64,000 nt of DNA from the NCBI GenBank assembly GCA_014728215.1, contig WJLZ01000068.1, forward strand, positions 1 to 64,000. Direction: 5' to 3'. Shown here in pieces: positions 21,149 to 24,966 of the stretch (the first letter of the stretch is position 1; each line of letters begins with the position of its first letter). The translations under genes were made by a program, and so were the position numbers. This stretch comes from Chitinivibrionales bacterium (GTDB taxonomy: Bacteria > Fibrobacterota > Chitinivibrionia > Chitinivibrionales > WJKA01). The notes under the pieces were generated by a model. The model searched no databases. It saw only the letters and a program-made list of their open reading frames with translations, and was not told where the DNA came from.

Positions 21149-21898
21149 TCACGATGAGGGCTCGATAAAATCCTGCAACATATACGATGTCCGCAGCACA
21201 CCGTTGTGATAGTGCAGATATCCCAGCGCACCGACTTTTTCGTTATAGTAATAATAACTCGTTGTGGAATCGGTCGTTTCTTTGTAGAGATAACATGTAT
21301 AAAAGGACAGGGCTGATGCATCAAGGGGGTGCTGATTACCGCAATAGAATGTTTCGCTGGTCGAAAGAATTTCAAGAGTAACTTCCTCAGAATCTGAGGT
21401 AATTTCCGGGTGAAGGGTCCAGGTATCGCCGGTATGGGCCGGATAGGCCAGCCACAGATGGGCAGTATCGTAGAGCTGTATCCGATTGGTGGAATAGTTG
21501 TATTCGCCAGTGATATATAATCCCCTGACTGTTACGTTGATATCCCTGTAGACAACATAAAAACCGCTGTCAATCGCTTCCCATTCATATTCATACACAT
21601 ATTCATACGCCGGGTCATCGACATTTTGCAGGGTAAGGGTCTCGAGAACAGTCTTGTTGTTAAGTCCCCACACCGATGGTATTGCAAGATCCAGCTCCCA
21701 CCGGGAATGCTGGATTTTTCCTGTTGAATCGTAATCGGTATATGAATAAATCCAGTGGTTGCCCGCCTGAAGGGGAATGATACTACTCGTCCGGGGGAGA
21801 GGTGGATGCATTGGGGAGTCCATTGCCATATCCGTTTCGACACTGCAGCGGAGAAATATCATGAAGACTGCCATTAGAGCCGGGAGAGCTGTTTTCAT
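21149..21898 (-). CDS. Lipoprotein of the ECF/caspase operon, function unknown
   Basis: A 249-residue predicted lipoprotein: a hydrophobic N-terminus ending in IFLRC puts the lipid-modified Cys at position 18. The mature part is rich in aromatic and beta-strand residues and contains tracts such as YEYVYEYEWEAID, suggesting a beta-sandwich or DUF-type exported fold. No enzymatic motif is visible. It starts one base after the caspase stop codon, so it is the last gene of the ECF sigma/anti-sigma/caspase operon and probably acts with the barrel protein at the outer membrane. Confidence 0.78.
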   Translation of the reverse strand: MKTALPALMAVFMIFLRCSVETDMAMDSPMHPPLPRTSSIIPLQAGNHWIYSYTDYDSTGKIQHSRWELDLAIPSVWGLNNKTVLETLTLQNVDDPAYEYVYEYEWEAIDSGFYVVYRDINVTVRGLYITGEYNYSTNRIQLYDTAHLWLAYPAHTGDTWTLHPEITSDSEEVTLEILSTSETFYCGNQHPLDASALSFYTCYLYKETTDSTTSYYYYNEKVGALGYLHYHNGVLRTSYMLQDFIEPSS

Positions 21899-21899
21899 A

Positions 21900-23621
21900 T
21901 CATTTCCTCAAGGTATTGTGAATGAATGGAACTCTGATCATGAGTGACATATCAAAACCGCCGAAATCATAGGTAAATGGAGTAGGCGAGTTCTTATCGA
22001 TTGTCTCCGCCGAATCCTGATATTTGTACCGAATTTCAGTCCCGATGTGAGTAAAAGGAGATAAGGAATACTCATAGGCTACGGCGAGAAAGGGCAGAAC
22101 AAGAGTTCCGGTTTCTTTCTGTTTGCCGGATTGCACCACGTTGTAAAGCTGGTCGCTAAATGTCGAGGAGCACACAAAGTCAATGTACATAAAAGTAAGG
22201 CCGGCGTGAAAAGAGATGTCTTTGAGAAGGCCGGAGGTGAATCGATATCCGGAGCCGATTTCGACTGCAGTAAGAGCAAGATCGGTTTCGGTGGTTAATG
22301 AATAGGAATAGAGATTATTGTCAAAGGGATTCGCTTTTGAACTAAAGTAGGTATCTTTATCGGAATCCCACATATATGCTGCACCGAAACGAGTATAAAT
22401 TCCATTGGCAAAAAGCAGTTCTGCGCTCATCGACGGGCGATAAAGACCCATGGGGAAATAAAACCGGGGTGATATACCAAAAGTTGAATAATTTCCAAAA
22501 GCATGATTAAGGTCGTCCACAAGGGGGGCGAAATCGGTGAACTGATAGCCGAACAGGCCGATAAGGCTGAAAACAAGGTTGGTTTGTCTGTCTCCTTTAG
22601 CGGTGGAGCGGGTGGGCTTGACATGGCGAAAGTGCGCCGGGCGAATTGAGTGAGTCTTTTTTTCCTTTATCGTAACAGCTGCCAGCCGTTTACTACTCCC
22701 GCTTCGATTAACTACCTGATATGTTCCGGGGTTAAGTGCGATCATGAACCGGGATCCGGCCTCTTTGGTCAGATCGGCGACAATCGTTCGGTTCTTGTCA
22801 AGGATTGTCACCGGGCCCGCCACACCTTCCTCGAGAATAATGCCCTGAGTACGGATATTCAGATCGGCCAGAATGATATCTCCTTCTCCCTGAATTTTGA
22901 ATTGATATCCCGGATGCTGAATACCAACCGATGATTTGACCGTACTTGCGATGGTATGGTTGTAAGAATAATGATAGGCCTCGTTCAATGTTATTTTGCC
23001 GTCCTGCGACAAATCGGCGCATCCTCGGAGGGCATTGAGAAAATGGAAGGTAAAAATTGAGTTCCGGTAATAATCCGATTCCTGGGAATGCTCATTTGCC
23101 GATGACGAGTAGAGAATTACCTGTCCCTTTACTTTGCCGTCTTCCTTGAACAGAAAGGGTTCGGCTAATTTACCGCCCTTTGTTCTGGTAAAACCGCCGC
23201 TTTGGCATGCATCCAGAATGGCGATTCTGATTGTTCCGGGTACCTGGTCGAGTCGTCTTTTCAGATCAGTCATCGCCAGCCGTTTTTCTCCCATGAGCAG
23301 ACTGTCGTGGGTGGCATGACCGGAATAGTAAAAGAGGAAAAGATGTTCTTCTGATGCGCTGTCCCACTTTTCCTGAAATGATGATATCGATTGCAGAAGT
23401 TCTTTCGGGGAAGAATTATGGAGCATGATAATATTCTGTTTTTTGAAGCCGCAGTAGTCATTAAGAATTGATTGAAATTCTTGCAGATCGTTGTTGACAT
23501 ATTTGAGTGATTCATAGCTATCACCGGCTTCACTGTTACCTGCAAGCACTGCGAAACGTGCTGCAAAGGATGAAAAGCATATCACCAGAGTAAGAAATAA
23601 TGGCCAGCAAAAATATTTCAT
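21900..23621 (-). CDS. Caspase-fold (C14) peptidase with C-terminal outer-membrane barrel-like domain
   Basis: A 573-residue exported protein. A signal peptide (about 1-21) leads into a caspase-like domain with FYYSGHATHD (His102) and LDACQSGG (Cys139), the catalytic dyad motifs of C14 peptidases. A linker/carboxypeptidase-like strand region (about 255-340) follows, then about 220 residues of alternating aromatic and polar strands ending in a phenylalanine-rich tail, resembling an outer-membrane beta-barrel. The protease would thus sit in the periplasm tethered to the outer membrane. It overlaps the anti-sigma gene by four bases. The barrel call is by pattern only. Confidence 0.85.
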   Translation of the reverse strand: MKYFCWPLFLTLVICFSSFAARFAVLAGNSEAGDSYESLKYVNNDLQEFQSILNDYCGFKKQNIIMLHNSSPKELLQSISSFQEKWDSASEEHLFLFYYSGHATHDSLLMGEKRLAMTDLKRRLDQVPGTIRIAILDACQSGGFTRTKGGKLAEPFLFKEDGKVKGQVILYSSSANEHSQESDYYRNSIFTFHFLNALRGCADLSQDGKITLNEAYHYSYNHTIASTVKSSVGIQHPGYQFKIQGEGDIILADLNIRTQGIILEEGVAGPVTILDKNRTIVADLTKEAGSRFMIALNPGTYQVVNRSGSSKRLAAVTIKEKKTHSIRPAHFRHVKPTRSTAKGDRQTNLVFSLIGLFGYQFTDFAPLVDDLNHAFGNYSTFGISPRFYFPMGLYRPSMSAELLFANGIYTRFGAAYMWDSDKDTYFSSKANPFDNNLYSYSLTTETDLALTAVEIGSGYRFTSGLLKDISFHAGLTFMYIDFVCSSTFSDQLYNVVQSGKQKETGTLVLPFLAVAYEYSLSPFTHIGTEIRYKYQDSAETIDKNSPTPFTYDFGGFDMSLMIRVPFIHNTLRK

Positions 23622-24361
23622 TGATCTGTCCCGGCTTTGGTTATTAAAAGCTTTTTTACCCGGGTATCATCGCCTAAGTCGAGATCGATTGAAGAAAAAT
23701 CTTTTTTCGATGAAAACTGCCGGACAACCCGGTTCCGGATTAACGATACCGAAAGGGGCTTTTCTGAAAAAACAACGATAAATAGTTCCTTTCCTATGTA
23801 ATCGTCGAGAATAATACTATTGGGCAGTGGCAGGTTTTGTCCTTTTTCCAATTCCACTGACCCGGCACCGTTTTCCGGGTAATAGGTGGTAATCTTTCCC
23901 TCTTCATCGATACTGAGCAGGATAAGTTTGTTTTTTGCACCGCATGTATAGGTGAACTGGACCTGTTCACCGGGTGTGAAAATCCGGCTTTTTCGTTCCC
24001 TGATTTCGCCCGATTGGGTTTTAACATATACCGCCAGATCGGATTCTCCTTTTGTTCGATACTCAGGACCGGATACGGTGTGCTGAAATATAAGGTACCC
24101 GCCCAGAAGAAGCACAAGAGAGGCGGCAAGAGCATACAATGGCCGGGGGAATAATGGCCTGATCTTTGATTCCCTGCCGAAATTCTGATCGCTGGAGGGA
24201 AATCGTTCCAAAAATGCCGATTTTTCTGAATCGAGCCGGCGAAGATAATCTGCACAGGAAGGACATTTGGAGCAATGCTTTTGCAGTGTATTCCGGGCCG
24301 TTTCAGAACAGTCGTGGGTAAAATAAGCCGTCAGTTCAAGTTTGTCCGGATGATTATTCAT
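23618..24361 (-). CDS. Anti-sigma factor: zinc finger, TM helix, DUF4384-like domain
   Basis: A 247-residue single-pass membrane protein. The cytoplasmic N-terminus has the zf-HC2 anti-sigma zinc motif HxxxCxxC (His29, Cys33, Cys36). A TM helix spans about 75-92, and the periplasmic part (about 100-247) is beta-rich and resembles DUF4384, a domain often found with caspase-like proteases. It overlaps the ECF sigma gene upstream and the caspase gene downstream by four bases each. It probably holds the sigma factor until the periplasmic domain is altered or cut, with the caspase an obvious but unproven candidate. Confidence 0.83.
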   Translation of the reverse strand: MNNHPDKLELTAYFTHDCSETARNTLQKHCSKCPSCADYLRRLDSEKSAFLERFPSSDQNFGRESKIRPLFPRPLYALAASLVLLLGGYLIFQHTVSGPEYRTKGESDLAVYVKTQSGEIRERKSRIFTPGEQVQFTYTCGAKNKLILLSIDEEGKITTYYPENGAGSVELEKGQNLPLPNSIILDDYIGKELFIVVFSEKPLSVSLIRNRVVRQFSSKKDFSSIDLDLGDDTRVKKLLITKAGTDQ

Positions 24362-24846
24362 TCTGATTGTATCCTTTTAAGTATATGAGGAAGTTTTTTT
24401 TTGAAACGGCCTAGGTTCCGTCGAATCGTTGCAGGAGACTGGCCGGTAATTTTCCTGATTTCTTCCTGATTAAAGCCCTCCACATAGGTTAAATAAACAG
24501 CATCACGGATATTTTTATTGTATTGACTTAAAACCAGGGTAATAATCTCCTTTTTGCAGAAAAGATCATCAATTTTTTCTGAATCAGATTTCAGAAGTGC
24601 TATGTCGGCAGTATCGAATTTTTTCCTGAAACGAAGAACATTGAAACAGTGGTTCTTTGCGGTGTTATAAATCCAGGGAATAACTTTGCTTTTATCACTG
24701 ATTGTGTGATATTTACTCATAAGCTGCATAAACACCACCTGGAGTGCGTCTTTTGCATCATCTTCTGATTTTAGAATCGCACGACACTGTCCGTAAATAA
24801 GAAAACCATACTTTTCGTAGAGCTCTTTGATTTTTGTTGAACTCAT
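24358..24846 (-). CDS. ECF-type RNA polymerase sigma factor
   Basis: A 162-residue sigma-70 family protein with only regions 2 and 4. Region 2 is recognised by DDAKDALQVVFMQLMSK and the following IPWIYNTAKNHCFNVLR. Region 4 is recognised by LTYVEGFNQEEIRKITGQSPATIRRNLGRFKKKL, an HTH. It is first in a four-gene coupled operon with its membrane anti-sigma factor, so it should be released by an envelope signal and probably controls this operon among others. Its ATG lies just 24 bp past a strong inverted repeat. Confidence 0.92.
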   Translation of the reverse strand: MSSTKIKELYEKYGFLIYGQCRAILKSEDDAKDALQVVFMQLMSKYHTISDKSKVIPWIYNTAKNHCFNVLRFRKKFDTADIALLKSDSEKIDDLFCKKEIITLVLSQYNKNIRDAVYLTYVEGFNQEEIRKITGQSPATIRRNLGRFKKKLPHILKRIQSE

Positions 24847-24885: not shown

Positions 24886-24966
24886 CCAGTTTTATGATAT
24901 ATTACTTAAAAAGACAAATGAAAATACAAAAATCGCTCAAAAACAGTGAGGAGGTTGAATAATTTA

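Follow-up and report, generated by a model that had tools for sequence, protein, structure and literature searches.

Four open reading frames on the minus strand of a 64,000-nucleotide stretch of contig WJLZ01000068.1, from a Chitinivibrionales bacterium (this whole stretch is called the window below), form a compact operon encoding, in order, an extracytoplasmic function (ECF) sigma factor, a single-pass anti-sigma factor, an exported C14 caspase with a C-terminal barrel, and a lipoprotein (Table 1). They are joined by two 4-base overlaps and one 1-base gap, all at the positions and with the spacing given in an initial annotation made from the DNA letters. What is described here as gene, modelled fold, linkage, shared motif or promoter is a result of computation; together they point toward a proteolytic link between the caspase and the sigma factor.

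Table 1. Coordinates of the operon and its predicted features within the window.
Feature	Position	Strand	Basis
Predicted ECF-type promoter, TGAGCGA-N16-TGTC	24913..24939	minus	conserved before orthologous sigma genes
ECF sigma factor gene, 162 aa, regions 2 and 4	24358..24846	minus	profile matches
Membrane anti-sigma factor gene, 247 aa: cytoplasmic zinc motif, one transmembrane segment, periplasmic DUF4384-like domain	23618..24361	minus	
Zinc-binding motif H29-x3-C33-x2-C36	24254..24277	minus	nearly invariant in 27 relatives
Predicted caspase cleavage site R102-T-K104-G105 (between K104 and G105), shortly after the transmembrane segment and before DUF4384	24047..24058	minus	conservation
DUF4384-like periplasmic domain, residues 128-202	23756..23980	minus	profile matches in relatives
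Exported C14 caspase with C-terminal predicted outer-membrane barrel, 573 aa	21900..23621	minus	
Caspase catalytic domain with H102, C139	22887..23558	minus	
Activation-loop R146-T-K148-G149, predicted self-processing site in low-confidence flexible loop	23175..23186	minus	[KR]G 102/102
T340-A-K342-G343 at caspase/barrel junction, predicted self-release site in variable linker	22593..22604	minus	[KR]G 74/76
8-strand OmpA-like beta-barrel, residues 350-567	21921..22574	minus	AlphaFold2 and Foldseek
Beta-rich lipoprotein gene, 249 aa, Cys18, found with long-barrel operon form	21149..21898	minus	

The sigma factor has regions 2 and 4 only, as expected of the ECF group: Sigma70_r2 scores 35.9 bits, above its cut-off, and the NCBIfam sigma70-ECF model 62.3 bits (cut-off 42.9), with region 4 slightly under the Pfam cut-off. 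In the anti-sigma factor, an HxxxCxxC motif is followed by a single hydrophobic segment at about residues 74-96, read as transmembrane from the sequence; the protein is a candidate inhibitor of the sigma factor. Its initial description as a zf-HC2 protein with a DUF4384-like part holds at the level of residues (H29, C33 and C36 are all present) but less well at the level of profiles: the window protein itself gives no zf-HC2 match, which 19/27 orthologues do, and DUF4384 is sub-threshold (24.4 vs. 27 bits) in the window protein and matched in 24/27 orthologues. The Fibrobacter anti-sigma factors (L064, L065, L072) lack the zinc motif, while retaining the DUF4384-like part and a K-G dipeptide discussed below.

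The caspase matches Peptidase_C14 (PF00656; E 3.9e-12), and the catalytic residues first assigned to it, H102 and C139, are invariant in 41/41 relatives. Its D137-x-C139 form suggests that it would cleave after Arg or Lys, the positively charged residues after which prokaryotic caspases are described as cutting (PMC6426788). Structure prediction, proposed at the outset as a check on a suspected barrel, bore the suspicion out: the AlphaFold2 model has strands over residues 350-567, with a predicted local distance difference test score mostly >90, and a further beta-rich domain at about 250-335, between the caspase domain and the barrel. Foldseek returned E. coli OmpA as the top match (E 3e-8), followed by metacaspases/caspases. 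Model confidence is low at loop 142-156 and at the junction, 338-345, consistent with both being flexible, accessible segments. The lipoprotein gene adjoins the caspase on its 3' side in all ten other “long-barrel” operons with enough downstream sequence; its Cys18 is invariant (11/11) as annotated, although an Arg at the preceding position is not typical of a lipobox, and a fold search gave weak LolA/YmcC-like resemblance only.

The source genome has a single C14 gene, and caspase relatives are present in 134/168 Fibrobacterota genomes. Among the Fibrobacterota matches listed, an anti-sigma match lies immediately 5' on the same strand for 132 of 150 caspases, those 132 coming from 115 genomes, and the order sigma factor, anti-sigma factor, caspase was seen again in nearly all of 40 fetched regions. 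The search for this neighborhood in other genomes, as initially recommended, therefore found the core linkage kept across the phylum; because it is conserved this widely, the arrangement is not a matter of chance, and there is little doubt that it represents a conserved, envelope-related ECF module of the Fibrobacterota. Several genomes carry two systems, one long-barrel and one “short-barrel.” A peptide-pattern scan of genome contigs recovered two near relatives only, and a plasmid search distant caspases only, with no sigma factor in the annotated neighborhoods examined.

A feature common to the two proteins is the dipeptide [K/R]-G, often R-x-K-G, which occurs at three places: the caspase loop just after the catalytic cysteine (C139-QSGGFTRTK148-G149 in the window), the anti-sigma linker between membrane segment and DUF4384 (YRTK104-G105), and the caspase-barrel linker. 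In a set of 102 operons, including two fetched twice, [KR]G is found in the loop in 102/102 and in the anti-sigma factor in 101/102; K104 and G105 (101/102 each) rank near the top for conservation within the anti-sigma family, although they sit in a linker and their flanks vary. K342-G343 is kept as [KR]G in 74/76 sequences reaching the junction, and 26/27 representatives have the dipeptide within a span of 26 residues, vs. 8.0 +- 2.2 expected from composition (5,000 shuffles, maximum 16). In one operon (L053), Arg replaces Lys at all three sites. The flanks also agree between the partners: among 38 distinct operons, caspase and anti-sigma factor agree on whether P2 is aromatic (both or neither) in 36 (permutation p<5e-5) and on whether P3 is Arg in 28 (p=0.013), in tests that ignore phylogeny. 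Six C14 proteins taken from other phyla have no KGG in this loop.

Two further groups of operons are of interest for the motif. Divergent sigma/anti-sigma/caspase operons (L304, L305, L310-L313, from genomes G159, G154, G166, G037 and G034) hint that the family of these systems is larger; here Arg at P3 has gone from most of both proteins, and K-G stays. In genus g27 (L294-L303), the caspase is on a separate contig from the sigma/anti-sigma pair, with R-x-K-G kept in both, an unlinked arrangement that amounts to a natural test of action in trans.

Upstream of orthologous sigma genes, a -35/-10-like pair with fixed spacing is conserved and is taken, from sequence, as the predicted promoter: TGAGCGA-N16-TGTC in long-barrel operons, TGAGC-N18-CGTCTA in short-barrel operons, and GTRACA-N16-GTGTTHA in Fibrobacteraceae-type operons. 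Exact matches are about three times as frequent as in reversed-pattern controls (28 vs. 9, 31 vs. ~10, 24 vs. 9). Promoter-linked genes common to several relatives encode TonB-receptor/TonB-C-like proteins, MMPL exporters, a DUF3450 protein, lipoproteins, a family of two-part proteins whose N-terminal domain is followed by a barrel-like C-terminus, a PagL-like protein directly 3' of the caspase, and flavin mononucleotide reductases, which are not obviously exported. The predicted regulon in relatives would consist mostly of exported envelope proteins. For the source genome, a wider regulon was sought by allowing two mismatches, and was set aside: 39 sites were found vs. 20 in a reversed-pattern control, with no convincing extras.

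These distributions bear on one suggestion of the initial annotation, that the sigma factor switches a caspase-based envelope defence, or, by extension, programmed cell death. C14 proteases do act in bacterial immunity and death systems, and the promoter-linked serpins of some relatives (below) could restrain a dangerous protease; but the system is near-universal in its phylum, unlike patchy defence genes, export takes its caspase to the envelope, and the genes predicted as targets encode transport proteins, outer-membrane proteins and lipoproteins. Given the near-universality and the envelope-protein targets, a defence role is unsupported, and is regarded as highly improbable.

The other suggestion, that the barrel-linked caspase frees the sigma factor, gains support from the phylum-wide linkage and from the [K/R]-G shared by three sites: the operon is probably a Fibrobacterota envelope-stress sigma system in which the caspase makes the site-1 cut, at the shared motif. 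The anti-sigma factor would hold the ECF sigma factor at the inner membrane, and the C-terminal barrel would anchor the exported caspase at the outer membrane. On an envelope signal, the caspase would process its own activation loop at RTK148-G; its catalytic part might then be freed from the barrel by a cut at AK342-G; and it would cut the anti-sigma factor at RTK104-G, a short way beyond the outer face of the inner membrane. An RseP-like protease would finish the release of the sigma factor, which would then drive transcription of its operon and, in many relatives, of envelope genes as well. Failed barrel assembly, leaving the caspase near the inner membrane, could be a further trigger or a different one. 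Self-cleavage between K342 and G343, freeing the catalytic part from the barrel, is a serious possibility, and would by that means bring an enzyme of the outer membrane within reach of a substrate in the inner membrane. The complete relay, in which an outer-membrane-anchored caspase zymogen carries stress from outer to inner membrane by cutting first the [K/R]-G of the junction and then the same sequence in the anti-sigma factor, is offered tentatively. Two M50 proteases with PDZ domains, of the RseP/site-2 kind, are encoded in the source genome and are candidates for the second cut; M50 proteases are near-universal (14/14 control genomes).

The first cut could have a different author. HtrA-type proteases are the usual site-1 enzymes, and one possibility is that an HtrA/DegS-like protease controls the anti-sigma factor, while the sigma factor has the caspase as one of its outputs, a protease of envelope quality control or remodelling, and [KR]G has other roles. 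The five substantial HtrA-like genes of the source genome, the position of the caspase gene at the end of the core of an operon that appears autoregulated, and the envelope genes among the targets in relatives are all in keeping with this; what it leaves unexplained is the presence of one conserved, co-varying dipeptide at anti-sigma linker, caspase loop and junction, as well as the near-obligate pairing with one anti-sigma family, and it is judged unlikely. A second possibility is that a third protease, of trypsin-like specificity, cuts both anti-sigma factor and caspase at the shared motif, making the caspase a co-activated substrate. The motif at three sites is equally expected with one outside protease, but no third protease gene is linked to the operon, a suitable specificity is expected of the caspase itself, and self-processing in the loop after the catalytic Cys is common among metacaspases; this explanation appears very unlikely.

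Several points weigh against the caspase as site-1 protease. The cleavage itself, like the order of events, the signal and the release from the barrel, we infer; the HtrA-like genes are ready rivals for the first cut; the shared motif is short; and K-G in the caspase loop could be structural. Because the covariation tests carry no correction for phylogeny and the aromatic-P2 group is largely one clade, the P2/P3 covariation is supportive only. The motif has its exceptions, an anti-sigma factor with KS in place of K-G (L276) and two caspases lacking the junction dipeptide (L069, L071). The barrel was modelled for the window protein, the short-barrel and Fibrobacter forms being assigned by sequence character; profile comparison of long-barrel, short-barrel and Fibrobacter C-termini detected no homology among them, and for this reason a common barrel for the three operon forms is not claimed (a crude amphipathic-strand count favoured strands in most, not all). 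Finally, the only exact match to TGAGCGA-N16-TGTC in the 5.0 Mb source genome is that of the operon itself, which means that the regulon there may be small or its sites degenerate.

The nearest familiar system is RseA-DegS-RseP-sigmaE of E. coli, which shares with the Fibrobacterota operon an ECF sigma factor, a single-pass anti-sigma factor with a periplasmic part, apparent autoregulation, a regulon of envelope proteins and the presence of RseP-like proteases. In E. coli, however, the site-1 protease belongs to the PDZ serine proteases and acts at the inner membrane, while the candidate here is a co-encoded caspase fused to an outer-membrane barrel, and the periplasmic domain of the anti-sigma factor is DUF4384-like in the Fibrobacterota. 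A barrel protein destined for the outer membrane that reports its own assembly failure at the inner membrane would, hypothetically, parallel NlpE and RcsF, sensors of outer-membrane mis-targeting that are lipoproteins without protease activity.

For the regulatory logic, there is a precedent in Craspase (type III-E CRISPR, the CASP system), in which a caspase-like protease cleaves Csx30, an inhibitor of an ECF sigma factor, and relieves inhibition (PMC10028731). Craspase differs in being cytoplasmic, RNA-activated and devoted to CRISPR immunity, in using a CHAT protease, bound to Cas7-11, rather than one of this C14 subfamily, and in having neither a membrane anti-sigma factor nor a barrel; no CRISPR gene was recognised adjoining the operon, and the likeness is functional only. 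Caspase homologues fused to DUF4384 are reported elsewhere (PMC7475262 and PMC6426788), but there in one polypeptide, whereas here DUF4384 is on an anti-sigma factor encoded beside the caspase. The initial annotation regarded a protease-barrel fusion in a sigma operon as its most novel unit; this has to be qualified, since the operon section of Asplund-Samuelsson et al. (2012; PMC3501461) already lists predicted sigma-70/metacaspase operons in Myxococcus, Anaeromyxobacter, Haliangium, Sorangium, Ralstonia and Fibrobacter. That section puts forward no mechanism and gives no description of an anti-sigma partner, a barrel, a shared motif, a promoter or a regulon; a literature search found no paper on the anti-sigma partner or mechanism of such operons. 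With those operons noted in 2012 and Craspase as a cytoplasmic precedent, the system is not a new category. What is new here, as read from the sequences, is the [K/R]-G dipeptide conserved at three places in caspase and anti-sigma factor.

Most bacterial caspase homologues have, to our knowledge, no known substrate. In this case, comparative genomics names a candidate substrate (the adjoining anti-sigma factor), a candidate bond (that between K and G) and, as a readout, a defined promoter; some members of the phylum can be cultivated. If the proposal is true, it would give a bacterial caspase a role in signalling rather than death and provide a proteolytic relay from outer to inner membrane, and Craspase would be joined by a second caspase-like protease that targets an inhibitor of a sigma factor. 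In the complete relay tentatively offered above, maturation, release and signalling would all be set by a single short sequence throughout the phylum.

Some smaller observations concern relatives of the operon. In two related genomes the short-barrel caspase frame contains an in-frame stop (L057, L058; G022:C37, G021:C274), either decay or sequencing error. Close 3' of the short-barrel caspase, three loci (L155, L156, L159) encode a ~185-aa protein preceded by a sigma-type promoter of its own; Pfam marks the L156 protein as PagL-like, a hint that lipid A remodelling may be among the outputs. One exported serpin subfamily carries the promoter in four genomes (L132, L133, L137, L138; G020, G019, G023, G022), two of the four having been found by orthology, not motif; they score 19-21, against a background in which 2/857,982 positions reach 16 and none reaches 18. 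Serpins are able to inhibit cysteine proteases, and those linked to the promoter might restrain the caspase. As dedicated, site-mimicking caspase inhibitors they were rejected: because most serpins lack the promoter and their reactive loops have no consistent K-G, the link, one subfamily in four genomes, is kept as a side observation. In genome G013, a serpin gene lies ~470 bases 3' of the caspase on the same strand (L067:6490-7872).

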